Assembly (NCBI GenBank): GCA_038396585.1
Contig: CP121691.1
Location: forward strand, 2,852,001-2,916,000
Reading direction: 5' to 3'
Origin: Vallitaleaceae bacterium 9-2
GTDB taxonomy: Bacteria; Bacillota; Clostridia; Lachnospirales; Vallitaleaceae
Length of the DNA stretch: 64,000 bases
In this document: one piece after another, positions 33,145 through 45,113 of the stretch
Layout of the letters: the number at the start of each line of letters is the position of its first letter
Position numbering within the stretch: the stretch's first letter is position 1
Made by a program: the position numbers and the translations under genes
The notes under the pieces: generated by a model
What the model was told of the DNA's origin: nothing
Databases searched by the model: none
Seen by the model: only the letters and a program-made list of their open reading frames with translations

Positions 33145-33957
33145 ATGGACACGATATATATGAAACTTACCCAAATGACCAAGGCTGACAACCTATCCTA
33201 TACAACGCTTGCAAAACATATACTTGAATCCGATAATCCCAAAAAGTTAAAACTCAAAACACTTCAGTTAAACTGTCACGTATCTAACGCTACTATTTTA
33301 CGATTTTGTAAAGCACTTGGTACCTCTGGATTTTCCGAGTTAAAATATCTGCTAGCTCAGGAACGGGAACAAAAAAAAGAGTGTTTAATCACTAAACACT
33401 CTGAACTATTTGAAATGTCAACAGAACACTTTGACAATATAGAGGCTTCTTTTATTGCTACAAGACGCCTTCTATCTCCTGATTTACTTGAAACGATTGT
33501 TGAAGTATTACATCAATCAAAGGTGATTAATATATACGCCCTCGGTGGTACATTTCTCGTTGCTCAAGATTTTGAGTTAAAACTTGATCGCATTGGAAAG
33601 TTTTGCAAATCTTATAATGATAAGAATTTACAGTTTTTTGCTTCTAAAAACTTAACTGAAAATGATTTAGCTATCGGAATTACTTATTCTGCCAAATCAA
33701 AAAGTGTTATTGACAGCTTAATTGTCGCAAAGGAACAAGGTGCCAAAACCCTCTTAATAACTTCAGAAAAAAACACGGAATTTGAACATTCGATTGATTT
33801 TATTGTCTATATTAATTCTACAGATCATATTAACCGCTTAGTTACAACAACCTCTCGTTTAACAATGCTTTACATAATTGATCTCATCTATTATCGGTAC
33901 ATTAAAAAAAATCAAACCTACATCGAAAAAAAATTAGCTCATAACAGCTATTTATAA
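33145..33957 (+). CDS. RpiR/MurR-family regulator with SIS domain
   Basis: This 270-residue regulator has an N-terminal RpiR helix-turn-helix (about 1-75, NCHVSNATILRFCKALGTSGF). A C-terminal SIS domain follows (about 110-250), of the kind that senses phospho-sugars (YALGGTFLVAQDFELKL, GITYSAKSKSVIDSLI). It is divergent from the PTS operon and is its probable regulator, with a phosphorylated sugar as inducer. GGAGG precedes the start. It overlaps the convergent XRE-TPR gene by 6 bp. Confidence 0.9.
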   Translation: MDTIYMKLTQMTKADNLSYTTLAKHILESDNPKKLKLKTLQLNCHVSNATILRFCKALGTSGFSELKYLLAQEREQKKECLITKHSELFEMSTEHFDNIEASFIATRRLLSPDLLETIVEVLHQSKVINIYALGGTFLVAQDFELKLDRIGKFCKSYNDKNLQFFASKNLTENDLAIGITYSAKSKSVIDSLIVAKEQGAKTLLITSEKNTEFEHSIDFIVYINSTDHINRLVTTTSRLTMLYIIDLIYYRYIKKNQTYIEKKLAHNSYL

Positions 33958-34884
33958 CTTTATTCGGCTGTCAAAAGCGCGTAACTCAGCTTTTAACGTC
34001 AATGGAATCTCTAATGCATCTATTATTTTATTAAAATGCTCGCATTCCTTAATTTGCTGATAATCAAAAAGACTATTGTGTAAAATGATTGCATAGCTTG
34101 CCTTAACAAAGAGCATTCTCGATTTTTCATAGTTTTGCATCTCAAAATATGCGAAGGCAGCATAGTAATACGGATAGTATATCCTATCGTACGAGTTAAT
34201 TGTCTCTTGATATCCCACTATCTTTTCCGTTTGTTCTATAATCTCTCTGTGCTTTTTTTCAAAATACAAAAGTTCTAATTGATAGATCATATAGCTGTGA
34301 AAGGGTTCTTGATATTTCTTAAACGTCCTTAAATCTTTTATCAAGGCATACCCTTCATTATAGTATTCTTGTGCCTGTTTTATTTTTCCAAGCTTAAGAT
34401 AACACATAGAGGTTAGTTTATATAATCTAGACAAAGTAATATCCATAATATTCAACTTTTGCTCTCCAAAATAAGATTCTTGAATATTATGGATTATTTG
34501 ATCGTAGCCATTATTTTCATAATATTGTGTTTCTAAATCAATTGCTATTATCTCATGACATAGAGGCTCCTTCGTATAGTCGTTGCACTCTTTTGCTTCT
34601 GATGTCATTTTAAATAGCGACTGTATATCTCCTCGTCGACGTTGAAATACAAATTGTTCCGAAAAAAACTTAACACTCGTTGGATCATCAAAGCCTAATA
34701 ATTCATAATATTCAAATAAATTAATCATTAGCTTCTGGTTAAACTTATTAACAATATCTACTGATGGGGTTCTTTGATCATTTTCGATCATATAGACATA
34801 CTTCTCCGAGCAAATATCTTGTGCTAGATTTTGCCTTGTCATCCCCATTTCTTGTCTTCTTTGTTGGATAATTTTTCCAATCAT
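33952..34884 (-). CDS. XRE-type regulator with TPR-like domain, paralogue A
   Basis: This 310-residue regulator has an N-terminal XRE helix-turn-helix (about 5-60, MTRQNLAQDICSEKYVYMIEND) and an all-helical C-terminal part of about 240 residues with TPR-like repeats. The layout is that of RNPP-type peptide sensors (PlcR, ComR). It is a paralogue of the equal-length protein at 42256-43188. The start is placed at 34884; the first ATG lies against the GGGGA ribosome site and is too close. The 15-bp motif at 34970 lies 85 bp upstream. Target and ligand are unknown. Confidence 0.8.
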   Translation of the reverse strand: MIGKIIQQRRQEMGMTRQNLAQDICSEKYVYMIENDQRTPSVDIVNKFNQKLMINLFEYYELLGFDDPTSVKFFSEQFVFQRRRGDIQSLFKMTSEAKECNDYTKEPLCHEIIAIDLETQYYENNGYDQIIHNIQESYFGEQKLNIMDITLSRLYKLTSMCYLKLGKIKQAQEYYNEGYALIKDLRTFKKYQEPFHSYMIYQLELLYFEKKHREIIEQTEKIVGYQETINSYDRIYYPYYYAAFAYFEMQNYEKSRMLFVKASYAIILHNSLFDYQQIKECEHFNKIIDALEIPLTLKAELRAFDSRIKL

Positions 34885-34969
34885 ATGAATCATTCCCCAC
34901 ACTAACACTACTGTCATTATTCATGAGTTAATTAAAGAAATAATATCACATTCACTTTTTTTATCCTAC

Positions 34970-34984
34970 GGAACAATTGTTACT
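34970..34984 (-). promoter_or_regulatory. Shared 15-bp palindromic motif, site 1 (before XRE-TPR A)
   Basis: Plus strand GGAACAATTGTTACT, with core AACAATTGTT a perfect palindrome. It lies 85 bp upstream of the regulator start. The same sequence occurs at 42218 and 44987 in the same orientation. A -10-like TATTAT follows about 24 bp downstream on the minus strand without a good -35 box, which fits an activator site. Confidence 0.65.
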
Positions 34985-34994
34985 ATATTATTAT

Positions 34995-35774
34995 CTAATA
35001 TGTATTCTCGACTATATATGACAAAGCATTTTTTTCCAATTCTTTTTTACCTGTTGTGACGTCATAGGTGATATCAACAGTTATCCACTGCTGAGTTTCT
35101 TTGATGTACACTTGATTCCATGCATGGTATTGATCAATATCATCTTTACGTCCCATGATAAGTTTTGTTGGAATTCCTTGACTTCTTAGCATTGATGCAT
35201 ATAAAGAAGCATAGTCATAACAAATCCCTTGTCCTGTAGCTATTGTCGTATCAATGTTTGGCAAGTAGCTTGGTGTAAGTTGATTTTCTTTATTATAGTC
35301 ATAAGCAACATTATCATAAATATAATCATAAATTATGCGTATTTTTTCTTGATCAGTTGTCGCCTCTTTTGTAAGTTCTTCGGCTTTTTTAATAGCTACA
35401 TCGTCCTTAGACCACTCGACTTTTTGGACTGATTGTAAATATAAGACTGTCGGATCTTCAAGTCGTAATGTAACTTTTTTTGTTTGAACCACTTTGTATT
35501 GATTCCCATTAATCTTTTTTAGTGCATATAACGTATACTCTCCATTACCATGTTGAAGCGGTAATTGTGTTAAGCCTTTTACTATGTAGTCGGTATTTTT
35601 ATTCTCTTTTGTTATACGTACTGCCATTGTACCGTCAACGGTCGCATTAACACTTACTACACCTTGGCTAAGTTTTGTAAAATCAAAGTATTCTGTTGAA
35701 GCATCAACTGGTAACATAAATAGTACAAACATTAATGTAATATATATAATGAAGTATTTCTTTTCTTTAAACAT
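34995..35774 (-). CDS. Exported transglutaminase-like protein
   Basis: This 259-residue protein has an N-terminal signal or anchor (residues about 6-26) and a C-terminal transglutaminase-like domain. The papain-type triad is visible: Cys about 185 in GQGICYDYASLYASML, His about 217 in QYHAWNQVYI and Asp about 233 in ITVDITYD. It may be a protease or crosslinker at the cell surface. Its 5' leader carries a c-di-GMP riboswitch and its own promoter, so unlike its neighbours it is controlled at RNA level. In other Clostridia such riboswitches control surface and adhesion genes. Confidence 0.87.
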   Translation of the reverse strand: MFKEKKYFIIYITLMFVLFMLPVDASTEYFDFTKLSQGVVSVNATVDGTMAVRITKENKNTDYIVKGLTQLPLQHGNGEYTLYALKKINGNQYKVVQTKKVTLRLEDPTVLYLQSVQKVEWSKDDVAIKKAEELTKEATTDQEKIRIIYDYIYDNVAYDYNKENQLTPSYLPNIDTTIATGQGICYDYASLYASMLRSQGIPTKLIMGRKDDIDQYHAWNQVYIKETQQWITVDITYDVTTGKKELEKNALSYIVENTY

Positions 35775-35784
35775 AAAATCTCTC

Positions 35785-35874
35785 CTTTCGGTAACTGGCT
35801 GCCATCTATAAAAAGGAAGGCCCTGTAGTTTTGCGTCCTTAACTTTCGTTAAGTTTGCCTTTATCGGTGGAAAG
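35785..35874 (-). ncRNA. Cyclic-di-GMP class I (GEMM-I) riboswitch
   Basis: The minus-strand leader matches the GEMM-I consensus in order: GGCAAAC, a CUUAAC-GAAA-GUUAAG tetraloop stem, GGACGCAAA, then CAGGGCCU and GAUGGCAGCCAGUUACCG. The base equivalent to G20 of the known Vc2 riboswitch is G, favouring c-di-GMP over cGAMP. P1 pairs CUUUC (35870-35874) with GAAAG (35785-35789), overlapping the Shine-Dalgarno AAAGGAGAG (35780-35788). Ligand binding would thus hide the ribosome site, predicting an off-switch. A GGUG/CACC hairpin could compete with P1. Confidence 0.92.
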
Positions 35875-35907
35875 CACCAATAAATCTATTATTAATATGA
35901 TATCTCT

Positions 35908-35936
35908 ATTATAGCTTGTTTTCAAGTAACTGTAAA
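35908..35936 (-). promoter_or_regulatory. Promoter of the riboswitch and transglutaminase gene
   Basis: TTTACA, a 17-bp spacer and a perfect TATAAT. The predicted transcript start, near 35901, is about 25 nt before the riboswitch. Confidence 0.75.
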
Positions 35937-35978
35937 GCTATGTGCGATGAACTTTTTGTGAACCTATTGGCTCATGGA

Positions 35979-36728
35979 CTATTCGATCCGTTTCCCTTTA
36001 ATGATCAATCGATGTGTTGGATTAATCATCGGTTCACATGTGATTAAGGTTATCTCTCCATCACTTTCATAAAAAGTGTCAAGTACATACATATCTTGAG
36101 GTTCAACATATAGCTTTTCCTCCACTTGATAGGTATAGCTCCCATCTTTTACTTGCAAAGAAATAAGATCATCTTTTTTCAGCTCGTCTAAACGATTAAA
36201 ATTTTTTCCAAACGTATGGCTTCGATGTCCAGCTATAATGTAGTGTTCTTGTACATCCTGATTTTCTATATCACTCTCTAAGCTTGCCAAGGAGATATTT
36301 AGGTTTTTTTCTGTTGCGCCTCTTAAAATTGGTAAATATAAGTCAATGGAATCGATTTCAAGCGCTCCCATCATATTATTTTTAATATATTCTTGACGCT
36401 TTTGTTGCCTTTGAGCTTCTTCTTCTTGTTGCTTTTCTAATTGCCTTTGAGCTTCTCTTTTTTCTTCTTGATTCAGGGCGTTAATCTCTTCTCGAAGCGC
36501 TTGCTCACTTTGTTGGTCAAGCGTCTCTTGTGTACTCCCTAATTCCTCTAGTTCTTCTTGTTCTAGCCCATCTTCCGTTGGACTCTGGTCTATAACACTC
36601 AATTGCTCTTGCCATAACAACAAAAGCTCTTTTTGTTGACGCATCTGCTGCCAATCTTCATATCTGGGATACATCAGAACAGCCAACCCACCAAGAATCA
36701 AAAATGTTGAGAATATTTTTAATTTCAT
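35979..36728 (-). CDS. Class D-like sortase
   Basis: This 249-residue transpeptidase should attach LPXTG proteins to the wall. It has an N-terminal membrane anchor (about 4-20), then a long Gln/Glu-rich charged stretch (about 45-115) predicted to be coiled coil, then the sortase domain. His about 166 (IAGHRSH), Cys about 230 (LITCEP) and Arg about 238 (THRLIIKG) form the active site. The charged insert is unusually long. It lies 51 bp behind the adhesin gene, whose LPATG signal is its likely substrate. Confidence 0.9.
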   Translation of the reverse strand: MKLKIFSTFLILGGLAVLMYPRYEDWQQMRQQKELLLLWQEQLSVIDQSPTEDGLEQEELEELGSTQETLDQQSEQALREEINALNQEEKREAQRQLEKQQEEEAQRQQKRQEYIKNNMMGALEIDSIDLYLPILRGATEKNLNISLASLESDIENQDVQEHYIIAGHRSHTFGKNFNRLDELKKDDLISLQVKDGSYTYQVEEKLYVEPQDMYVLDTFYESDGEITLITCEPMINPTHRLIIKGKRIE

Positions 36729-36745
36729 TATATTTCTCCTTATGA

Positions 36746-36772
36746 AAAGAGCAGAGATAATCTCTGCTCTTT
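36746..36772 (-). terminator. Hairpin between adhesin and sortase genes (attenuator)
   Basis: A 12-bp stem (36746-36757 with 36761-36772) closes a 3-nt loop just before the sortase ribosome site. There is no clear U run on the minus strand, so it may lower rather than stop sortase transcription, or stabilise the adhesin mRNA. Confidence 0.6.
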
Positions 36773-36779
36773 GGTTATC

Positions 36780-39700
36780 TTATTGTATACGTTTGCGAAG
36801 GAATAATCCAGACAAGATCATTATAAGTCCCATGAGGTTATATACACGTCGACTTTCTTCTCCCGTCGCCGGCAATTCTTCTCCAGCCCCTAAAGGAATT
36901 TCTACATTGATTTCAATAAGCTCTTCTGTTCCATCTTCATGAATAATGATGAAACTGTCTTTTCCTTCATATCCTGGATCCGGTGTATACTTCCAATTAC
37001 CTTCCGGATCAAATTCAACCGTTCCGTTTGTTGGCGGTGTTTTCACTTCAGGTATTGGTTTTGTCGGATCTGTTGGGTCCGTTGGGTCCGTCGGGTCTGT
37101 TGGGTCCGTTGGATCTGTCGGATCTGTTGGCTCCGTTGGATCTGTTGGGTCCGTTGGATCTATTGGCTCCGTCGGATCTGTTGGATCTGTTGGCTCCGTT
37201 GGATCTGTTGGCTCCGTTGGATCTATTGGCTCCGTCGGATCTGTTGGATCTGTTGGCTCCGTTGGTTTTGTCGGTCTACCAGGATTTGAGCGTCGTTGAT
37301 TTTCTAGCGTCATTGTATACGTTTGATTATTTTGTGTAACTTCAAAAGGATATTCCGTCTTATCTAGTACGTATCCACTTGGCGCTTCAATTTCTTGATA
37401 ATAATACACTCCATACTCAAGGTCATTAAATGCTACTTTTCCATCTTCCGATGTCTCACCTTGTGCAATAAGGGTTCCGTCTTGAGTATAAATCCCAATA
37501 ATTGCACCTGAAAGTGCTTTGAGCGTATTACGATCTACTTTTTGTATTTCGACATTTCCATGAATTCTTTCATTCACCACCGGGTCAACTTTTATAATTT
37601 TTTGACCCTGCGTAGCTATTGAGACTTCCCATGTCTGGCTTGAACCGATATAGCCAATAGGTGCTTTTGTTTCTTTGACAACATAATTGCCATGTCGAAC
37701 AAATTCAAAAACCACTTCTCCCTGAGCATTACTTTGGGCAACATATAATGGATTATTAAATTCTTGATCATTCACATCAAAAAGTGTAAACTCTGCACCT
37801 GCTAAAGGCTGTTGATTATTATCCACTTTTTTAAATTCTACGCTACCTTTTATCGGTTCATTTTCAACAATGAATCGCTGAATAGGTGCATTGTAGTCTT
37901 GGATTGTGACTTCTAGGACATCTGTATTAAGGTTGTAGCCAATTGGCGCTTCAACTTCTTTTAGCTGATACGTCCCATGGGCAATGTCTTTAAACACAAT
38001 TCGTCCTTGTTGGTCTGTCGGTTCTGAAACATATTTTTGTACACCATTTTGTTCTAATACAAACTTCGCTCCCGCAAGTTTATTTTGTGTATCTTGGTCA
38101 ACTTTGATAATTTCAATATCTCCAATAATCTTATGATTAACTACTGGTAAATCTGTTCGATCAATGTTTTGACCATCTTGTGTAATTGCAACTGCAATTT
38201 TTTCACTTGAAGGTTCATAGCCAACAGGTGCCAAGGTTTCTTGAACGTAATAATTTCCATATGCAATATCACTAAAAGTTACGATCCCACTTGCATCTGT
38301 TGTCTCTGTTAGCACGGGGACATCGTTCATATCAAAAAGCGTAAATTCAGCATCTGCTAGAGCTTGTCCTTGCTCATCAACCTTTTTCAAAGAAATTGTT
38401 CCTTTTTTGATGCGGTTAACTACATCTGCTAATTCAATCGTTTGACCATGATCTGTTTCTTCTACAGTCACATTAAGTACAACCGAGGATGCTATATAAC
38501 CCTCAGGTGCTTCTAATTCTTTCACAGTATATTGTCCATAGGCAACGTCTGTGAACAGAACTTGACCCATATCATTTGCAATAGCTTCTTGTACTAATAC
38601 TTCTGCTTGATTATATAGACCAAACTTCGCTCCACTTAAAGGCTTATTGCTATCATCTACTTTGGTTAACTGTATATTTCCTATTACACTTTGGTTTTCA
38701 ATTTCCTTTAGGTAGACCTGTTCTGTCGCTTCTTTTTCTACTAAAACAGGAATACGCGTTGAAGATAGCAAGTATCCTTCTGGTGCATTGACCTCTTCAA
38801 TATAATAGGTTCTGTCTAGTGGCAAGTTGATGATATGTACTTCTCCATCGGTTGTTTGGAATGTTGTATTTCCATATAAGTATTCAATATCATTAAAAAT
38901 GTACCACAGCTTAAACTCTGCTGGTGATTGAGTAATTGTCTGTCCATGTTCATCTTTTTTTACAAGATGAATCTCACCTCTATTTGGTACAACTTCTCCA
39001 CCTACAAATGAAAATTGTCGCGCGGATAGTTCTTGTGTTTCTACGGTTTGTTCTACAATTTTATCTCCTGAAAATGCAACGGTATTATTGACCATACCAT
39101 CGGCAGCGACAACCACCGTTGTATAGGTAACCTCATATATATGCTCTATGGCATTTAAAAAGTTGACCTTTAACGTCGTCGTTTTGTCGACTTGATTATA
39201 TGCACTGGAAAAAGTATATTCTGTCGTATCAACCACGTGTTTTTGACCGTTATCCACTCTATAAATTTCTAATGAATCCGGCTTATATGCCAATCCTGAA
39301 CTTAGTGTATCTTCAAATCCAGCATTATCAATGATAGACAAACTTTCATTGACCAAAATCTTCCAATCCAGTTCATCATCTGTATACACTTTTGTCTCAT
39401 TTGTCAGTGCTTCTTTATCAATAAATGCATCATACGAATCATAGCTTACTGATGTTTGATAGGTCCCTTTTTCCTGAACCCCTTCATTTACAACCGCTGT
39501 ATTCACATAGACGCCTTCTGATATCTCAGGCACACTTGTCAAGTATTCAATGACATATCGTTGTGTCACCGCATTATTAAACTCAAGTGTAAACGTCGTC
39601 TTATCTGTCGGATCCATAATAATCGTGTATTCACTTGCTGGAATTTCACCCAAAATGGTTGTTGTTCCATTACTAGCTACATCATAAGTATATACTCGAA

Positions 39701-42143
39701 TACTCGCCTCATCGATAACTCCGTCATAACCCAACGTATCCACAACTGAAATATCATTACCTAGATATTGGTTCAAATAGTTGATATAAACTTGCCATTG
39801 AAGTAATCGCTCGTTACCACTGTGCCAATCAGATACGATATTTTGATTCGCATCTAAACTTACTAAGCGTCCCTCTTTTTTTCCGCTATTCCATGAAGAG
39901 TCAATTACTTTTCGTGAAACTGATTTTGTCGTATCAATCACATAGTCACTCTGCGTTTTTCCACTAAATGCTGCTCGGTTAATATATGTTTGATCTGCAC
40001 TTGTATTGTCTTCTATTCCTTGTTCCGGATCATAAGTTGTCGTGTAAGTTATAGTTAAACTTTCATTGAGGTACTCTGAGGGTTCATTAACATCAATTAT
40101 AAGTTCGAGAACAAACCCTTTTTGATACCCTGTCACTCCATCTAAGGTATTTTCCGTTAATATATAGTCCACGCCTTCTACTAAAGGTGTACTTCCACGC
40201 TTAACATTGAGCGTACTCTCAAGAAGTTTTAGCCCTTTGTTTGGAAAAGTATCTGTAATTGTAAGCTCTTTTATCGGTTCCCGCTGAGGATTGACTTGAA
40301 TTTTCCAATCCATTGTTTTTGCATTGTAGTCTATGCCAACAAAAGATTTACTGTATGTATTTTGCGGAACTGTAATTGGATACGTAGTATCAACACCTGT
40401 TCCAACACCAGTGTCACCTTCTAATGTGGCGTCATTGACAAATTGATTCACTGAAAAATCTGTGATTGTTGTCGTATATTCAATCTTTCGATAGGTTTGA
40501 ATATTGCCTAAGTTTATCGTTACTGTAGTACCTGTTCCCGGGGTATCAACAACCAAAACATCTCCCGGAAGCATTGCTATAGCATCACCATTTTCATCAT
40601 ACACCTGAATATTTGCGCTATCTATCGACAATCCCTCTGGAATAATATCTGTAATAACCGCATTGTTGATGCTTTGATTTGCTTCATTAATATGCACTGT
40701 CCACTTTAACTGCTTATCTGTATACGTCACTTGTGAACGCCCTTCTTTACGCAAAATAGCATCTCGTTCGACCCAGACATCTGCTTGTGCCGTTCCTAGT
40801 TCTATCGTCCCATTTTTAAGGACTGCTGTATTTGTAAACAAGTTGTTTTGCAGATAGTTTCCACTGTTAATCAGTGCATAGTCAATTGATGTGTCAAATT
40901 GGATTCGGTAAGCTTCATTTGATGCAATCGCTCCTAGATTAATAGGAAAAGCGGTCGCTGTCTTGTCTGCTGACAATGTCGCTATCCAATTCTCTCCATC
41001 TTTAGACAAAGTATATATCTCAATTGATGATGCATCCACACTTAATCCAGCCGGAAGATTTTCTTCGATAATTGCTTCATCGATTGTTCCACCCGCTTTA
41101 TTAACGTCAATCATCCACTCAATTTTATCTTCGCCAATATATCTGCCGCTTTTTTCAATAAAATCACTTCGAAGTAATTGATCTACCGTTGCTTTTGCCG
41201 GCAGATTTTTCGTTCCATATGCCAACGTTGCAGCATTTTCAAACGCTGTTTTTGAGTAGTCGTCAATGATGGTTACGTATTCAACACGATAACCACTGTA
41301 AGGTAAAAGCGTATCAAACTCTATCTCAAAAGAAGATGCATCCACCGTTATAGCCGCCCCACTCGTCGCTAATGTTCCGACATTGGTCTGACCATTGTAT
41401 CCGACATTCAAATTATACACTTTGATTCCATCGTCACTTAGGTGAACCCCTGCCGGAAATAAGTCTGTAAGCGTAGCATTGCTAATCTGAGTTTCTTCAT
41501 TATTAAGTACTTCAATACTCCAAGTTATTTCTTTGGCATCTTTGTTCGCATCAGGTTCACCAAATTTTTCAATTGCCGTCACTTGCTGAACCGGTTTAAC
41601 TATAACTTGTAGGTTTTTGTTTGTTGCGTCTTGGAAAGGTATTCTTTGAATAACGTTATCACTGAACTTTGTCATATCAAACTCAAGTCCAAATCCTACG
41701 ACTCCATTTTGTACTGTTTGATCTTCAATGGCTTCATTAAACACAAAGGTTAATACACCACCAATCAAGCTATAGGTTCCGACTTTTGTTCCATCATTAA
41801 GTATGATATCTAGATTCTCCCAATCACGATCAAACATAAATGCATCTGGAACTGTAATTTGTGACCAATCGCCTGTTTTTGCATCTTTGTGCATTGTATC
41901 CCAAGAATATTCAAGATATACTTGTGTTCCATCAACCACTTCAATTACATCATTGTTTTGAATATCCTGACCGTCTTTGCCACCTAGCTTTAATGATTCA
42001 AATGTGAATATGTTTCCTAAATTCTGTCCTGTCCCTTGAGCATAAACTCCAGTCGAAAAAATAGGTGCCCATAATTGAACTATCATCATCATGATAATTA
42101 AATATGCACACCTACTTCTAGTTTGTCTTTTTATTGTCTGCAT
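36780..42143 (-). CDS. Giant LPXTG-anchored Cna/SpaA-type adhesin
   Basis: This 1787-residue surface protein has a signal peptide (about 1-34). It next has an N-terminal adhesin-like domain (about 40-190), six repeats of about 130-150 residues of collagen-binding Cna type, and six SpaA/Cna_B repeats (each near KVD...AGAKFTLYD...KEVEAPIGY) that probably form isopeptide bonds. A Thr/Pro/Asp/Glu low-complexity stalk, an Ig-like module and the sorting signal LPATG (about residue 1758) with hydrophobic tail and RKR end follow. The start at 42143 is chosen by the GAAGAGGTGG site. The motif at 42218 is 74 bp upstream. It is followed by its own sortase. Ligand unknown. Confidence 0.93.
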   Translation of the reverse strand: MQTIKRQTRSRCAYLIIMMMIVQLWAPIFSTGVYAQGTGQNLGNIFTFESLKLGGKDGQDIQNNDVIEVVDGTQVYLEYSWDTMHKDAKTGDWSQITVPDAFMFDRDWENLDIILNDGTKVGTYSLIGGVLTFVFNEAIEDQTVQNGVVGFGLEFDMTKFSDNVIQRIPFQDATNKNLQVIVKPVQQVTAIEKFGEPDANKDAKEITWSIEVLNNEETQISNATLTDLFPAGVHLSDDGIKVYNLNVGYNGQTNVGTLATSGAAITVDASSFEIEFDTLLPYSGYRVEYVTIIDDYSKTAFENAATLAYGTKNLPAKATVDQLLRSDFIEKSGRYIGEDKIEWMIDVNKAGGTIDEAIIEENLPAGLSVDASSIEIYTLSKDGENWIATLSADKTATAFPINLGAIASNEAYRIQFDTSIDYALINSGNYLQNNLFTNTAVLKNGTIELGTAQADVWVERDAILRKEGRSQVTYTDKQLKWTVHINEANQSINNAVITDIIPEGLSIDSANIQVYDENGDAIAMLPGDVLVVDTPGTGTTVTINLGNIQTYRKIEYTTTITDFSVNQFVNDATLEGDTGVGTGVDTTYPITVPQNTYSKSFVGIDYNAKTMDWKIQVNPQREPIKELTITDTFPNKGLKLLESTLNVKRGSTPLVEGVDYILTENTLDGVTGYQKGFVLELIIDVNEPSEYLNESLTITYTTTYDPEQGIEDNTSADQTYINRAAFSGKTQSDYVIDTTKSVSRKVIDSSWNSGKKEGRLVSLDANQNIVSDWHSGNERLLQWQVYINYLNQYLGNDISVVDTLGYDGVIDEASIRVYTYDVASNGTTTILGEIPASEYTIIMDPTDKTTFTLEFNNAVTQRYVIEYLTSVPEISEGVYVNTAVVNEGVQEKGTYQTSVSYDSYDAFIDKEALTNETKVYTDDELDWKILVNESLSIIDNAGFEDTLSSGLAYKPDSLEIYRVDNGQKHVVDTTEYTFSSAYNQVDKTTTLKVNFLNAIEHIYEVTYTTVVVAADGMVNNTVAFSGDKIVEQTVETQELSARQFSFVGGEVVPNRGEIHLVKKDEHGQTITQSPAEFKLWYIFNDIEYLYGNTTFQTTDGEVHIINLPLDRTYYIEEVNAPEGYLLSSTRIPVLVEKEATEQVYLKEIENQSVIGNIQLTKVDDSNKPLSGAKFGLYNQAEVLVQEAIANDMGQVLFTDVAYGQYTVKELEAPEGYIASSVVLNVTVEETDHGQTIELADVVNRIKKGTISLKKVDEQGQALADAEFTLFDMNDVPVLTETTDASGIVTFSDIAYGNYYVQETLAPVGYEPSSEKIAVAITQDGQNIDRTDLPVVNHKIIGDIEIIKVDQDTQNKLAGAKFVLEQNGVQKYVSEPTDQQGRIVFKDIAHGTYQLKEVEAPIGYNLNTDVLEVTIQDYNAPIQRFIVENEPIKGSVEFKKVDNNQQPLAGAEFTLFDVNDQEFNNPLYVAQSNAQGEVVFEFVRHGNYVVKETKAPIGYIGSSQTWEVSIATQGQKIIKVDPVVNERIHGNVEIQKVDRNTLKALSGAIIGIYTQDGTLIAQGETSEDGKVAFNDLEYGVYYYQEIEAPSGYVLDKTEYPFEVTQNNQTYTMTLENQRRSNPGRPTKPTEPTDPTDPTEPIDPTEPTDPTEPTDPTDPTEPIDPTDPTDPTEPTDPTDPTDPTDPTDPTDPTDPTKPIPEVKTPPTNGTVEFDPEGNWKYTPDPGYEGKDSFIIIHEDGTEELIEINVEIPLGAGEELPATGEESRRVYNLMGLIMILSGLFLRKRIQ
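37064..37276. repeat. 9-bp tandem repeats coding for a DPT/EPT stalk
   Basis: About two dozen 9-bp units of the type GGATCTGTT/GGCTCCGTT on the plus strand code for D-P-T and E-P-T/E-P-I steps of the wall-spanning stalk. Perfect and near-perfect longer units recur, so length is likely to vary between strains by slippage. Confidence 0.9.
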
Positions 42144-42217
42144 AGTTCCACCTCTTCTTTCCCATACAATAGGATATTGATAAAAAGATGGTATCATATT
42201 AATACAGATATTAACAT

Positions 42218-42232
42218 GGAACAATTGTTACT
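42218..42232 (-). promoter_or_regulatory. Shared 15-bp palindromic motif, site 2 (before the adhesin)
   Basis: Plus strand GGAACAATTGTTACT, identical to site 1, 74 bp before the adhesin start. A TATGAT -10 box lies about 19 bp further on the minus strand, again without a good -35 box. Confidence 0.65.
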
Positions 42233-42255
42233 TAATATTTATTACACTTAACATT

Positions 42256-43188
42256 CTATGACAATGGATACATTTTCAAAAAATCATCTCGTAATTCATC
42301 TGTTACTTGAGGTAAATTTATCAGGCTGTTAAACAAAGGATTCATTCGGAAAAAATACACGTCATTAGGAAAAGGAAAAATCAAAAGAAAATTAATGGTT
42401 TTTATTATCCATTGTTGACTTTCCTGTATGTTCTTTTTCTGGTAATAGCCACAGGCTAGATAAAAAAAGGTTTGATGTATATTCTCAAGATGATTCATGT
42501 AATATTGATATTTTTCCAGTCGGTGGCCAATATCAATGACTGTATCCGGTTTATTCAACGATAAATTTAATGTCAGTTGATTAATCATCGCTGCAACCGT
42601 CACTTGTGCATAACGACTTATACATGATTTGGGCTCAATCAATGCGCAGGCACGCTGGGACATATATCTTGATTGGGCATATTCTCCTACCATTTGATAG
42701 CAAATTGAAAGAAGCAGCTTAAAATTAATAATGCACAAATCATCCATATATTTTCGATCGACGGAATCAAGGATTGCTTTGATTTTTGCTATCCCCTCTT
42801 GAGGTTGCTCTTCATATAGTACGAGATAACTTAGTTCATTAAGGACAACCTCATATTTCCAAGGCAATGTATTAAAATCGGGAATCTTCTTAGCTTCCAG
42901 TGTCACTTCCATAAGTTCGACTTGATTATTGTTCTTACGGATGGCATTCATCTGCATCATGTATTCACGCACCCGAATCGGATCTAAACAATCCAAATAT
43001 TCATAATAAACAAAAAGATCAACGCCTAATCGATTACCAAGCAAACGAAGAATTTCTGTTGATGGAGAACGTTCTCCCTTTTCAATTAAATAAATATATT
43101 TATCTGTACAAATATTGTGGGCTAACTCTGAACGACTTAGCCCATTTTTTTCTCTATATTGCTGTACAACCTCTCCAATGTATCCCAT
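42256..43188 (-). CDS. XRE-type regulator with TPR-like domain, paralogue B
   Basis: This 310-residue paralogue of the protein at 33952-34884 has a closely similar N-terminus (GLSRSELAHNICTDKYIYLIEKGERSPS) and the same helical C-terminal layout. GAGGAGG precedes the start. It lies 30 bp behind the GGDEF gene, so both appear to be read from the promoter with motif site 3. It is upstream of the adhesin on the same strand. RNPP-like peptide sensing is inferred from domain order only. Confidence 0.82.
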   Translation of the reverse strand: MGYIGEVVQQYREKNGLSRSELAHNICTDKYIYLIEKGERSPSTEILRLLGNRLGVDLFVYYEYLDCLDPIRVREYMMQMNAIRKNNNQVELMEVTLEAKKIPDFNTLPWKYEVVLNELSYLVLYEEQPQEGIAKIKAILDSVDRKYMDDLCIINFKLLLSICYQMVGEYAQSRYMSQRACALIEPKSCISRYAQVTVAAMINQLTLNLSLNKPDTVIDIGHRLEKYQYYMNHLENIHQTFFYLACGYYQKKNIQESQQWIIKTINFLLIFPFPNDVYFFRMNPLFNSLINLPQVTDELRDDFLKMYPLS

Positions 43189-43218
43189 CGTTGCCTCCTC
43201 GTTGGCCTTTTTATAAAT

Positions 43219-44907
43219 CTATTTTGAAAACAATTCAAAAAACCGAAAATCATGTTTAATAATATGTCCGATGATGATTTCTTGAATGATATATTTGGCT
43301 AGATCTATTTGCTCTAACTCTCCTTTGTACATCGCTTCCATTAAATATTGCATGCTTTTCAGCAATTCTTTATGAATCTCCTTGTGCTCTTCAAGTTCAA
43401 TATACCTGTATTCATACAGCACTTTTTCTTCATTTGAAAAATGTTCTACCATATGTACACAAATTCTTTCAAGAAGCTGTGATGTTTTTTCAAAATTGTC
43501 TTCCATAAAACAGTTGACAATGAGTTCATTAGATAACGCAATTAATGAATTATGCTCATAATCGACTTCTTGATGTCCACTTCTAAAAAATGGCCCCCAC
43601 TCGATACTAATCGGCAATCCACCTTTATACATGAATACATTCTCATTGCTAATGACTTTATTGCGTCCTGTAAGTTTCGCTAAATACAGCGAATTATCTA
43701 CACGCTTAAATATGCTTTCTGCATCATCATCTGCCAACCACTGAGTTGCTCCAAAGCTTGCAGTAATTTGCTTGAAAGCATTCACTTGTATAGCTGCAAT
43801 ACTACTACGTAATTTTTCCGCAACAATCCCAGCTTCATATAACTCTGCTCCTGGTAAAAACACAGCAAATTCTTCTCCACCCCATCGACAAATTATATCG
43901 GTGTCTCTTAATTGGCCCTGGAGTGTTGTTGCTACTTGACACAACACTTTATCTCCTTCTAAGTGACCAAACTCATCATTAATCTCTTTAAAATGATCCA
44001 AATCCAATAAAATCATTGAAAATGTTTTGTTATCTCGACGCCCTTCGCGAATGCGCTCTTCCAAGAACTCAACAAAAAAACGACGATTGTATAAGTTGGT
44101 CAAACTGTCTCTAGTTGCAAGTTCATAAAGCTTTTTGGTGCTTTCACGCTTTTCTATACTCAACATTCGATTACGTACACAGGCGGTTAGTCTCAATAAA
44201 AACAACTTAAAATTAAAGGGTTTAATCAAGAAATCATCTGCCCCAATATTCATGCCATAAGGAATGGAAATCCCTTCACCATAAGTTGTGATAATAATAA
44301 TAATCGCATTTTTATTTTGTCGTCGAATATGGCGTATTAATTCTTGTCCTGTAAATTTTGGCATAACTAAGTCAAGCAAAAACAAATCATAGTCTGAAAT
44401 CTGCTTAAGCAAATCATTGGCTTCTTGATAATAGTCCGCATTATTCACTTGGCACCTTTCAAAATAGCTTCGTATAACCTCCAGTGAAAAACGACTATCA
44501 TCTATAACCGCTATCTTCATACTTTGTAAGTACTTTATAATCTCATATTCATTCAAAGAAAATAGAAAATACTGATATAATTCTTCTTCTACATTATCTG
44601 TGGTTTCTATAATTGCTGATACGCCCAAGTTGTAATAGTTGATTTTAACCTTAAAATCCATATCTTTTGTCAAAATAATACAAGAGGTTAAGTCAGTTAA
44701 TTGTGAACTTACTTCCCATACAATTTTTTCTGATACTGTTGTTATATGAGAATGTTCAATCAAAATAAGCGCTGCTTCGCACAATAACTCTTTTTGTTGT
44801 TCCCACAATATAATCGGTAATTTAATTAGCTCTACATCTAGTTTTTCTGCGATCGTCTCTCCAACAAAATCGTTTTCAATATTATGCGTTAAATATATGA
44901 CTTTCAT
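43219..44907 (-). CDS. REC-GGDEF-hemerythrin protein (predicted diguanylate cyclase)
   Basis: This 562-residue protein has a divergent receiver-like N-terminal region (about 1-120) and a true receiver (about 125-245, IDDSRFS, LDLVMP with the phospho-Asp, and IKPF). A GGDEF domain follows (about 270-430) with active site RWGGEEFAV. An inhibitory RxxD site (RDTD) lies five residues before it. The C-terminal bacteriohemerythrin domain (about 435-562) has its His ligands in VDYEHNSL, HMVEHFSNEE, EEHKEIHKELL and GHIIKHD, which suggests oxygen or iron sensing. The start is set at 44907 (AAGAAGAGG). It should supply c-di-GMP, the ligand of the nearby riboswitch. No partner kinase is seen. Confidence 0.9.
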   Translation of the reverse strand: MKVIYLTHNIENDFVGETIAEKLDVELIKLPIILWEQQKELLCEAALILIEHSHITTVSEKIVWEVSSQLTDLTSCIILTKDMDFKVKINYYNLGVSAIIETTDNVEEELYQYFLFSLNEYEIIKYLQSMKIAVIDDSRFSLEVIRSYFERCQVNNADYYQEANDLLKQISDYDLFLLDLVMPKFTGQELIRHIRRQNKNAIIIIITTYGEGISIPYGMNIGADDFLIKPFNFKLFLLRLTACVRNRMLSIEKRESTKKLYELATRDSLTNLYNRRFFVEFLEERIREGRRDNKTFSMILLDLDHFKEINDEFGHLEGDKVLCQVATTLQGQLRDTDIICRWGGEEFAVFLPGAELYEAGIVAEKLRSSIAAIQVNAFKQITASFGATQWLADDDAESIFKRVDNSLYLAKLTGRNKVISNENVFMYKGGLPISIEWGPFFRSGHQEVDYEHNSLIALSNELIVNCFMEDNFEKTSQLLERICVHMVEHFSNEEKVLYEYRYIELEEHKEIHKELLKSMQYLMEAMYKGELEQIDLAKYIIQEIIIGHIIKHDFRFFELFSK

Positions 44908-44986
44908 AATTCCTCTTCTTTCCTGTAACGATAACAATCCATAACCTCTCTCTATATTATATCGTACTCTCATCATAGATTTCTAT

Positions 44987-45001
44987 GGAACAACTGTTAC
45001 T
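44987..45001 (-). promoter_or_regulatory. Shared 15-bp palindromic motif, site 3 (before the GGDEF gene)
   Basis: Plus strand GGAACAACTGTTACT, one base different from sites 1 and 2, 79 bp upstream of the start. A perfect TATAAT lies about 25 bp further on the minus strand. Confidence 0.65.
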
Positions 45002-45113
45002 ATTCAAGATTGATTATTTAAATCATAAAGCTTTTGATTTTTATTGTCAAGTAATATAAGTTCTCCAATGCATCTTTGCTACAAATATGCCTATGCTCTA
45101 AATAATGGTATAT

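Follow-up and report, generated by a model that had tools for sequence, protein, structure and literature searches.

A c-di-GMP riboswitch, a transglutaminase-fold protein and a sortase-anchored adhesin as parts of a putative stick-and-release module in Bacillota

What does cyclic di-GMP (c-di-GMP) control in a locus where a c-di-GMP riboswitch lies beside a giant wall-anchored adhesin and a sortase? The question is posed by a stretch of 64,000 nucleotides from Vallitaleaceae bacterium 9-2 (contig CP121691.1, positions 2,852,001 to 2,916,000 of the forward strand), the whole of which we call the window, in a genome that consists of a single contig of 3.81 Mb. Pfam and NCBIfam scans confirmed six genes with the domains first described for them: a REC-GGDEF-hemerythrin protein, two regulators of the XRE type (XREa and XREb), an LPXTG adhesin, a sortase and an exported transglutaminase-fold protein, here called TGL (transglutaminase-like). 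These genes, and the RNA elements, promoter-like sites, palindromic boxes and peptide motifs placed below by window position, all lie on the minus strand. The initial annotation saw in them one circuit that decides about adhesion, with the GGDEF protein making the ligand and the regulators switching the adhesin. Our analysis of this and related loci points elsewhere: the target of the aptamer would be TGL and not the adhesin, and an OFF switch is its most likely reading.

On balance we lean towards the view that the whole locus is a c-di-GMP-controlled stick-and-release module. The sortase would fix the giant collagen-binding-type adhesin to the wall, and TGL, secreted and carrying a Cys-His-Asp triad, would be made mainly at low c-di-GMP, since bound ligand would close a lengthened P1 helix that covers the ribosome site of TGL. 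TGL would then take the adhesin off the surface, most likely through a cut beside the LPXTG anchor, where a P-x-G motif is the candidate site, and the cells would detach. In some relatives the adhesin seems to have a c-di-GMP ON switch of its own, which would place adhesin and enzyme under opposite control, and in the window species the XRE proteins would probably set the transcription of the adhesin and GGDEF genes jointly through a palindromic box.

That a c-di-GMP riboswitch belongs to the transglutaminase-like gene had been proposed from the outset, and the proposal holds: a c-di-GMP-I-GGC aptamer (c-di-GMP-I class, RF03167/RF01051; RF03167 score 68.2 bits, cut-off 59) occupies positions 35786-35868. 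The adhesin and sortase genes lie upstream of this aptamer, and the Shine-Dalgarno (SD) sequence of TGL, GGAGAG (35780-35785), follows immediately on its 3' side, so that the ribosome site abuts it; 11 bases separate the aptamer end from the ATG. A promoter-like site, TTTACA-17-TATAAT (35908-35936), stands before the riboswitch and another, TTGACA-17-TATGAT (45022-45050), before the GGDEF gene; both are consensus matches only, and such sites show no excess as a class in the region (56 found against 48.4 expected by chance). Because the aptamer is downstream of the adhesin and sortase genes and has a promoter-like site in front of it, TGL is probably a transcription unit of its own, and the target of the riboswitch would be TGL, perhaps together with the XREa gene behind it. 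A riboswitch governing the adhesin was considered and rejected on the same two grounds.

The pairing of riboswitch and TGL extends far beyond the window. TGL relatives were present in 35 of 41 genomes searched, its own included (E up to 1e-3, the weakest being domain matches only), and a scan of one genome per species gave 415 relatives, the best 80 of which served as named loci. Using a covariance model built from 25 aptamers and a search span of 450 nt upstream, we found an aptamer in 77 of the 80 named loci and two or more in 52, with none inside that span for L093, L140 and L145; a check of 20 relative loci with Rfam gave at least one copy in 18 and no c-di-GMP-I aptamer in L010 and L024. 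The aptamer passes straight into the SD sequence in nearly all named loci. Covariation supports the conserved helices, with double-sided changes in 10 of the 14 consensus pairs among the 25 aptamers, and the ligand-contact G before CAAA (G20 of Vc2) is invariant across the alignment; an A at this position goes with cyclic GMP-AMP (cGAMP).

Within 6 kb of TGL, a sortase gene occurs in 46 and an LPXTG protein in 25 of the 80 loci, counts in which many contigs end early. The 28 loci with full flanks have a riboswitch in 25, a sortase in 18, an LPXTG protein in 19 and both of the latter in 16. Seven of them have neither sortase nor LPXTG protein under the filters used, a point against the stick-and-release reading, and all three riboswitch-less full-flank loci fall among these seven. 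The loci span Tissierella, Brevibacillus, Anaerocolumna, Alkaliphilus, Paenibacillus, Neobacillus, Syntrophomonas and Anaerovirgula. Many relatives in the window's own family show the arrangement sortase-[riboswitch]-TGL with no adhesin adjoining, in a gene order that we take, from the first residues, to be purA-pth-sortase-[riboswitch]-TGL-mfd. One locus, L066, is the window's locus in the 97%-identical genome UBA4039, a metagenome assembly. Outside it, phmmer found no XRE homologue among the open reading frames (ORFs) of the relatives' loci (E up to 1e-3) and of the 80 named loci (E up to 1e-4), and in 7 of the 80 (L066, L068, L070, L076, L078, L111 and L121) the flanks fetched include a GGDEF gene with the signature motif. 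Conservation of all six genes as one unit, which the initial annotation had implied, was therefore rejected after this comparison; the expectation that the same families recur side by side stands for the adhesin-sortase-riboswitch-TGL part, with XRE and GGDEF outside the core. Judged by gene content, the recurring core appears to be riboswitch-TGL, often with a sortase and an LPXTG adhesin, so that the adhesin-sortase-riboswitch-TGL part would belong to a wider module of which the six-gene set is one species' version.

In order to see which way the switch would work, we compared the leaders. In the c-di-GMP-I class, ligand binding closes P1. The TGL aptamers carry on their 5' flank a strand complementary to the SD sequence on the 3' side; in the window this anti-SD strand is CUUUCC (35869-35874), which can pair with GGAGAG and so extend P1, and a typical pair from Paenibacillus is GAUAAAGCUU with GGGGUUUUAUC. 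Window-type leaders also carry an opposing hairpin, UUUAUUGGUG-CUUUC-CACCGAUAAA (35860-35884 in the window), which from leader comparison and folding is the predicted ligand-free, anti-P1 form with most of the anti-SD in its loop; a compensated variant occurs in L111 and L119. Over 70 unique leaders (from 76, L076 being omitted as it has no start), pairing of the 5' flank with the SD side averaged -7.97 kcal/mol for true partners, against -5.37 (standard deviation 0.27) after swapping and -3.50 after shuffling, and none of 200 permutations did as well as the true partners. In tandem leaders a U tract follows the upstream aptamer in 46 of 47 unique cases, the sole stem before it being the P1 extension, and this extension of the distal aptamer is likewise more stable with its own partner than with swapped ones (-6.64 against -5.47, standard deviation 0.16; 0 of 200 permutations). 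Enforcing the aptamer core raised the pairing of SD with 5' flank from 0.24 to 0.72 (mean of 76 leaders). Given a P1 that closes on the ligand, the SD-pairing flank and the U-tract stems built on P1 therefore predict that c-di-GMP lowers TGL, and from the leader comparison we read the TGL switch as OFF with good, though not full, confidence.

Several results weigh against this polarity. The swap tests ignore the relatedness of the sequences. Folding in the bound form exposes the SD less than the free form in just 46 of 76 leaders (9 of the 11 hairpin-type ones), or in 39 of 76 with a poorer choice of SD letters, because other pairings hide the SD already in the free form. The window leader is itself one of the two exceptions among the hairpin-type leaders. 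With the SD letters of the 76-leader test its SD exposure is 0.04 in the free form and 0.25 in the bound one, and with GGAG alone 0.08 and 0.002; either way most of the SD is paired whether or not ligand is bound, and static folding of this leader shows no switch. These observations, namely a window SD hidden already in the free-state folding and no clear difference in exposure over the 76 leaders, would suit an ON switch in which the pairing of P1 with the SD is incidental to aptamer architecture. We consider such a switch quite improbable, as it is opposed by an SD-pairing flank with compensatory changes and by the P1-built U-tract terminators of the distal aptamers.

If TGL is switched off by c-di-GMP, what happens to the adhesin? 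A neighbouring adhesin has one or more c-di-GMP-I aptamers of its own in L081, L085, L086, L122, L123, L127, L128 and L111, ten aptamers in total. In eight of the ten an intrinsic terminator begins within the last 9-10 nt of the aptamer; ligand binding and termination would therefore be mutually exclusive, which is an ON design, present in L081, L085, L086, L122, L127, L128 and L111. The aptamer of L123 and the second one of L111 lack an overlapping terminator. Opposite c-di-GMP control of adhesin and TGL is thus supported by design in seven loci, and is not general. Against it stands one more adhesin-side aptamer, the eleventh, which in L141 precedes the adhesin ORF by 430 nt; the terminator test of the other ten left it out, and by eye it has an OFF design. 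In the window, Rfam shows no riboswitch before the adhesin. In six loci (L069, L070, L073, L076, L107 and L143) the adhesin gene comes after TGL on the same strand, and the two might be on one message; the leaders of these six have one aptamer and are of the SD type, and as such would affect the translation of TGL only. Around the window adhesin and those of 13 loci (L068-L071, L073, L078, L079, L087, L101, L107, L124, L133 and L143), Rfam found no further riboswitch. Class II c-di-GMP aptamers occur in two Clostridium loci, L121 (2597-2680 and 3526-3609) and L130 (3611-3694), between the sortase gene and the next genes, which encode surface proteins; TGL has tandem class I aptamers there, giving both riboswitch classes in each locus.

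The next question is what TGL (259 aa, 34995-35774; PF01841, 86 bits) would do at the surface. Its residues C185, H217 and D234 are invariant in 33 TGL sequences. The predicted structure (mean predicted local distance difference test score, pLDDT, 91.6) shows a helix resembling a signal peptide, together with a small beta domain and a transglutaminase core. Structure comparison, which scarcely took in the beta domain (before residue 105), matched the core to TglA of S. pyogenes (Z 14.9), the putative cysteine protease 3isr (Z 14.3), Legionella LapG (Z 11.9), the TGase 4xz7 (Z 11.9) and TG3 (Z 11.6), with human transglutaminases and the pseudomurein endoisopeptidases PeiP and PeiW slightly further away. 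The Pfam matches up to E 0.1 were PF01841, PF04473, PF13471 and PF24656 only; TGL is not filed as LapG because BTLCP/DUF920 went unmatched in that scan, and no metalloprotease family is among its Pfam and NCBIfam matches. Going by the model, the fold cannot separate a protease from a cross-linker, and the argument rests on regulation. Synthesis at low c-di-GMP beside a sortase and an anchored adhesin, which several relatives would make at high c-di-GMP, fits release, and TGL is on our best reading a secreted cysteine protease that would free the adhesin when c-di-GMP falls. Some TGL relatives for which the R1 search gave no aptamer (L057, L058, L061 and L039) lie beside pilus-assembly-like genes, and the family may serve further surface structures.

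Weighing against a protease is that cross-linking transglutaminases have the same fold, as the TglA and TG3 matches show. TGL could accordingly be a genuine transglutaminase acting on the adhesin or the matrix by cross-linking or maturation, with the riboswitch tuning the degree of stiffening. The PF01841 assignment, the close structural matches to TglA and to 4xz7, and the six loci in which an adhesin follows TGL on the same strand all accord with this. If the polarity inferred from sequence is right, however, a cross-linker would be made just as cells leave surfaces, and its adjoining adhesins can bear the opposite switch, and we regard cross-linking as unlikely. The matches to PeiP and PeiW, the sortase neighbourhood and the many TGL loci in which no adhesin adjoins would instead agree with a wall hydrolase or isopeptidase that cuts the peptidoglycan link of sortase products or remodels the wall for motility. 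This alternative we hold to be distinctly unlikely, and it leaves unexplained the P-x-G motif beside the anchor.

The motif in question is IPLG (36888-36899), four residues before the LPATG sorting motif (36861-36875, located by Pfam scan and in the sequence), and it is a candidate recognition or cut site for TGL as an adhesin-releasing protease. With a pattern set after inspection of the tails, [VITANED]PxG lies no more than 40 aa before LPXTG in all 28 LPXTG proteins of TGL loci, and [VI]PxG does so in 22; the 28 include L066, two B. panacihumi loci, L039 with its aptamer-less TGL and an L130 protein 7 kb from TGL. The tail of the window-locus adhesin, as in L066, reads EIPLGAGEELPATG. Anchors were also sampled more widely, using a loose pattern, [VITANEDQP]PxG, and a strict one, [VI]P[LSAQETK]G. 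In TGL-less genomes (40 entries, 3 of them dropped) none of the 37 anchors has the strict form, the rows being free of [VI]PxG in the wide sense as well, and four have the looser form, all as an [AT]PxGY stretch. For C. difficile ZmpI, all cleavage sites fall in the segment immediately before the sorting motif (PMC4591827), which makes a helpful parallel. The wider sample of TGL-positive genomes (25 loci, 23 parsable) counts against a cut at this place, as [VI]PxG occurs in only 4 of its 23 anchors. Several of these genomes belong to the G025 group, whose TGL (L057) is the aptamer-less one beside pilus-like genes, and in the subset with close TGLs, which was picked afterwards, three of five anchors have the motif. 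The P-x-G motif could also serve the sortase.

The presumed substrate (36780-42143) combines a Big_8 domain, six Collagen_bind and six SpaA domains, a Pro-Thr-Asp repeat, a Big_9 domain and the LPATG anchor, and thus has both adhesin domains and the LPXTG-hydrophobic-positive tail of an LPXTG adhesin. It is the only LPXTG anchor protein in the genome above the Pfam cut-off. Its start is most likely ATG 42143 (1787 aa), rather than TTG 42224, because a ribosome site is seen by eye before that ATG and the counterpart ORF in L066 likewise has 1787 aa. A repeat with a 9-nt period at 37008-37304 encodes the Pro-Thr-Asp/Glu stalk of the adhesin and is prone to length variation. The sortase (249 aa, 35979-36728; PF04203, 83 bits) passes the general model TIGR01076; its nearest class model is class C, at 123.9 bits against a cut-off of 160, and a search of the genome with the window sortase as query found no second one. 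A terminator-like hairpin (36746-36772) separates the adhesin and sortase genes, and because of it the sortase may be made at a lower level than the adhesin or from a promoter of its own. In L103 (3680-7504) and similar Paenibacillus loci an O-mannosyltransferase-like protein (PF16192/PF02366) is encoded upstream of sortase-riboswitch-TGL, so that the sortase substrate there may be glycosylated.

The window adhesin, which has no riboswitch before it, shares a palindromic box with XREa and the GGDEF gene. Exact copies of GTAACAATTGTTCC occur only twice in the 3.81 Mb, before XREa (34970-34983) and before the adhesin (42218-42231), and a genome pattern search found a copy with one mismatch, GTAACAGTTGTTCC, before the GGDEF gene (44987-45000). 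Of three further one-mismatch copies in the genome, two lie inside ORFs and one upstream of an EAL-HDOD gene (L273, around 1501; G000:C1:34370-34383), whose match to the EAL profile is limited to the latter's second half. The box has six genome matches, against two for the reversed control pattern; as two of the sites had been spotted by eye, the independent evidence is the GGDEF site and the genome-wide rarity. L066 keeps the box copies, the one at the adhesin with a mismatch. Because the box is common to the regions upstream of XREa, the adhesin and the GGDEF gene, we favour one regulator, plausibly the XRE pair, as controlling both the adhesin and the local GGDEF gene. To this extent there is in-silico support for the earlier proposal of regulators that switch the adhesin, with the XRE proteins as putative binders of the box.

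XREa (XRE-TPR type, 321 aa, 33952-34917) and XREb (310 aa, 42256-43188) had been described as paralogous XRE-TPR regulators. Both have an HTH_3 domain, they are 27% identical, and with XREb as query the genome gave no others; TPR models match XREa only, below their curated cut-offs. HTH and TPR domains beside the gene of a small secreted peptide would mark peptide-sensing regulators of the RRNPP/PlcR type. In L066, a 26-nt deletion splits XREb (1917-2836), and the stop present in the window is missing, through either a true loss or an assembly error; this broken gene counts against the reading favoured here. The GGDEF protein (585 aa, 43219-44976), presumed to be the operon's first gene, has a GGEEF signature with RxxD upstream and a hemerythrin domain that is slightly below the Pfam cut-off and above that of TIGR02481; such a domain presumably senses oxygen or redox state. 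It had been named as the source of the ligand, and need not be, because the genome holds 35 GGDEF domains.

The box common to three island promoters and its one-mismatch copy upstream of the EAL-HDOD gene would also suit a single six-gene circuit, with c-di-GMP from the local GGDEF protein raising the adhesin through the riboswitch and the XRE proteins, and in C. ultunense (L078) a REC-GGDEF gene lies directly before the adhesin. Such a circuit is nevertheless highly doubtful, since the adhesin transcript does not begin with the riboswitch and since no XRE was found in the locus of another species, 7 of 80 have GGDEF, and the many GGDEF domains of the genome could supply the ligand.

Other c-di-GMP-I aptamers turned up during the comparison. 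In the window's genome, two tandem c-di-GMP-I-GGC aptamers (G000:C1:1438278-1438527; L064 9278-9529) precede a 972-aa exported protein with a pectate-lyase domain (PF09492), which adjoins polysaccharide-like genes, and a fourth aptamer (G000:C1:1282099-1282182; L063 9099-9184, minus strand) precedes a small, exported-looking Lys/Pro-rich protein with no Pfam match. Aptamers in Paenibacillus (L112 7965-8051 and L089 7116-7208) stand directly before small proteins that we take to be Spo0E-like. Might c-di-GMP feed into sporulation control through them?

How does a module of adhesin, sortase and c-di-GMP-repressed TGL compare with known systems, as far as the available portions of the papers cited here describe them? 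In C. difficile, c-di-GMP raises a sortase-anchored adhesin of the CD2831/CD3246 type by a type II riboswitch, a type I riboswitch represses the secreted ZmpI (PPEP-1), which cuts the adhesin directly upstream of its sorting motif, and the adhesin is released at low c-di-GMP (PMC4591827, PMC6200980). The opposed control of adhesin and enzyme would be alike, here in some relatives and as predicted from design. The differences are that ZmpI is a zinc metalloprotease whereas TGL is a candidate transglutaminase-fold cysteine enzyme with presumed cleavage, that the TGL module is spread over Bacillota, and that its adhesin-side switches are mostly of type I, as opposed to type II for CD2831. In the literature examined, ZmpI is the one Gram-positive case of c-di-GMP-controlled release of a wall-anchored adhesin.

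Parts of the module have appeared in print. The B. thuringiensis Bc2 RNA-Cap and Bc3-5 RNA-cspABCDE are c-di-GMP-I ON switches of the terminator/antiterminator kind before wall-anchored proteins, the ON logic being shown for Bc2 and proposed and tested for Bc3-5 (PMC4933901, PMC4759541). Eight of the adhesin-side aptamers described here have that design; neither account mentions TGL, the string 'transglut' occurring 0 times in either main text. Genome statistics have linked tandem c-di-GMP-I riboswitches in Bacillota (94% double, 6% triple) with COG1305, labelled 'transglutaminase-like enzymes, putative cysteine proteases' (PMC12452182). This is the same riboswitch-gene pair, so the link is, in the available text, already published as a single row of a table, in a paper whose main text has neither the term sortase nor adhesi- and whose available passages leave polarity and substrate aside. 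The literature searched, which left most subscription papers outside its coverage, gave no description of a riboswitch-TGL-sortase-adhesin module; a search for TglA gave no paper, and in the available part of PMC11651100 'transglutaminase' occurs only for a mouse gene.

A further functional parallel would be LapG of P. fluorescens, a transglutaminase-like cysteine protease with a C-H-D triad that frees a giant adhesin at low c-di-GMP (PMC3032545). TGL resembles it in having such a triad in a transglutaminase fold, with the Legionella LapG match given above. The LapG system, in contrast, is Gram-negative and c-di-GMP acts in it on a protein, through LapD, whereas in the case of TGL it would act on synthesis, through a riboswitch; LapG is placed in DUF920/BTLCP and TGL in Transglut_core. 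Tentatively, and with less confidence than in the module as a whole, we propose that TGL is a widespread Gram-positive counterpart of LapG: a riboswitch-repressed family of secreted transglutaminase-fold proteases that would cut anchored adhesins at P-x-G when c-di-GMP falls, with an origin independent of LapG/LapD and of PPEP-1, and here wired to a private XRE box that would also control the hemerythrin diguanylate cyclase and the EAL-HDOD gene. This gives the TGL family a biochemical hypothesis, a cut at P-x-G next to LPXTG. If true, the use of two opposing riboswitches for surface release would be a general strategy of Bacillota, and release would have been reached three times with differing regulation or chemistry, by LapG/LapD, ZmpI and TGL. 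The TGL system as we read it works like CD2831/ZmpI and LapA/LapG, yet is a member of neither.

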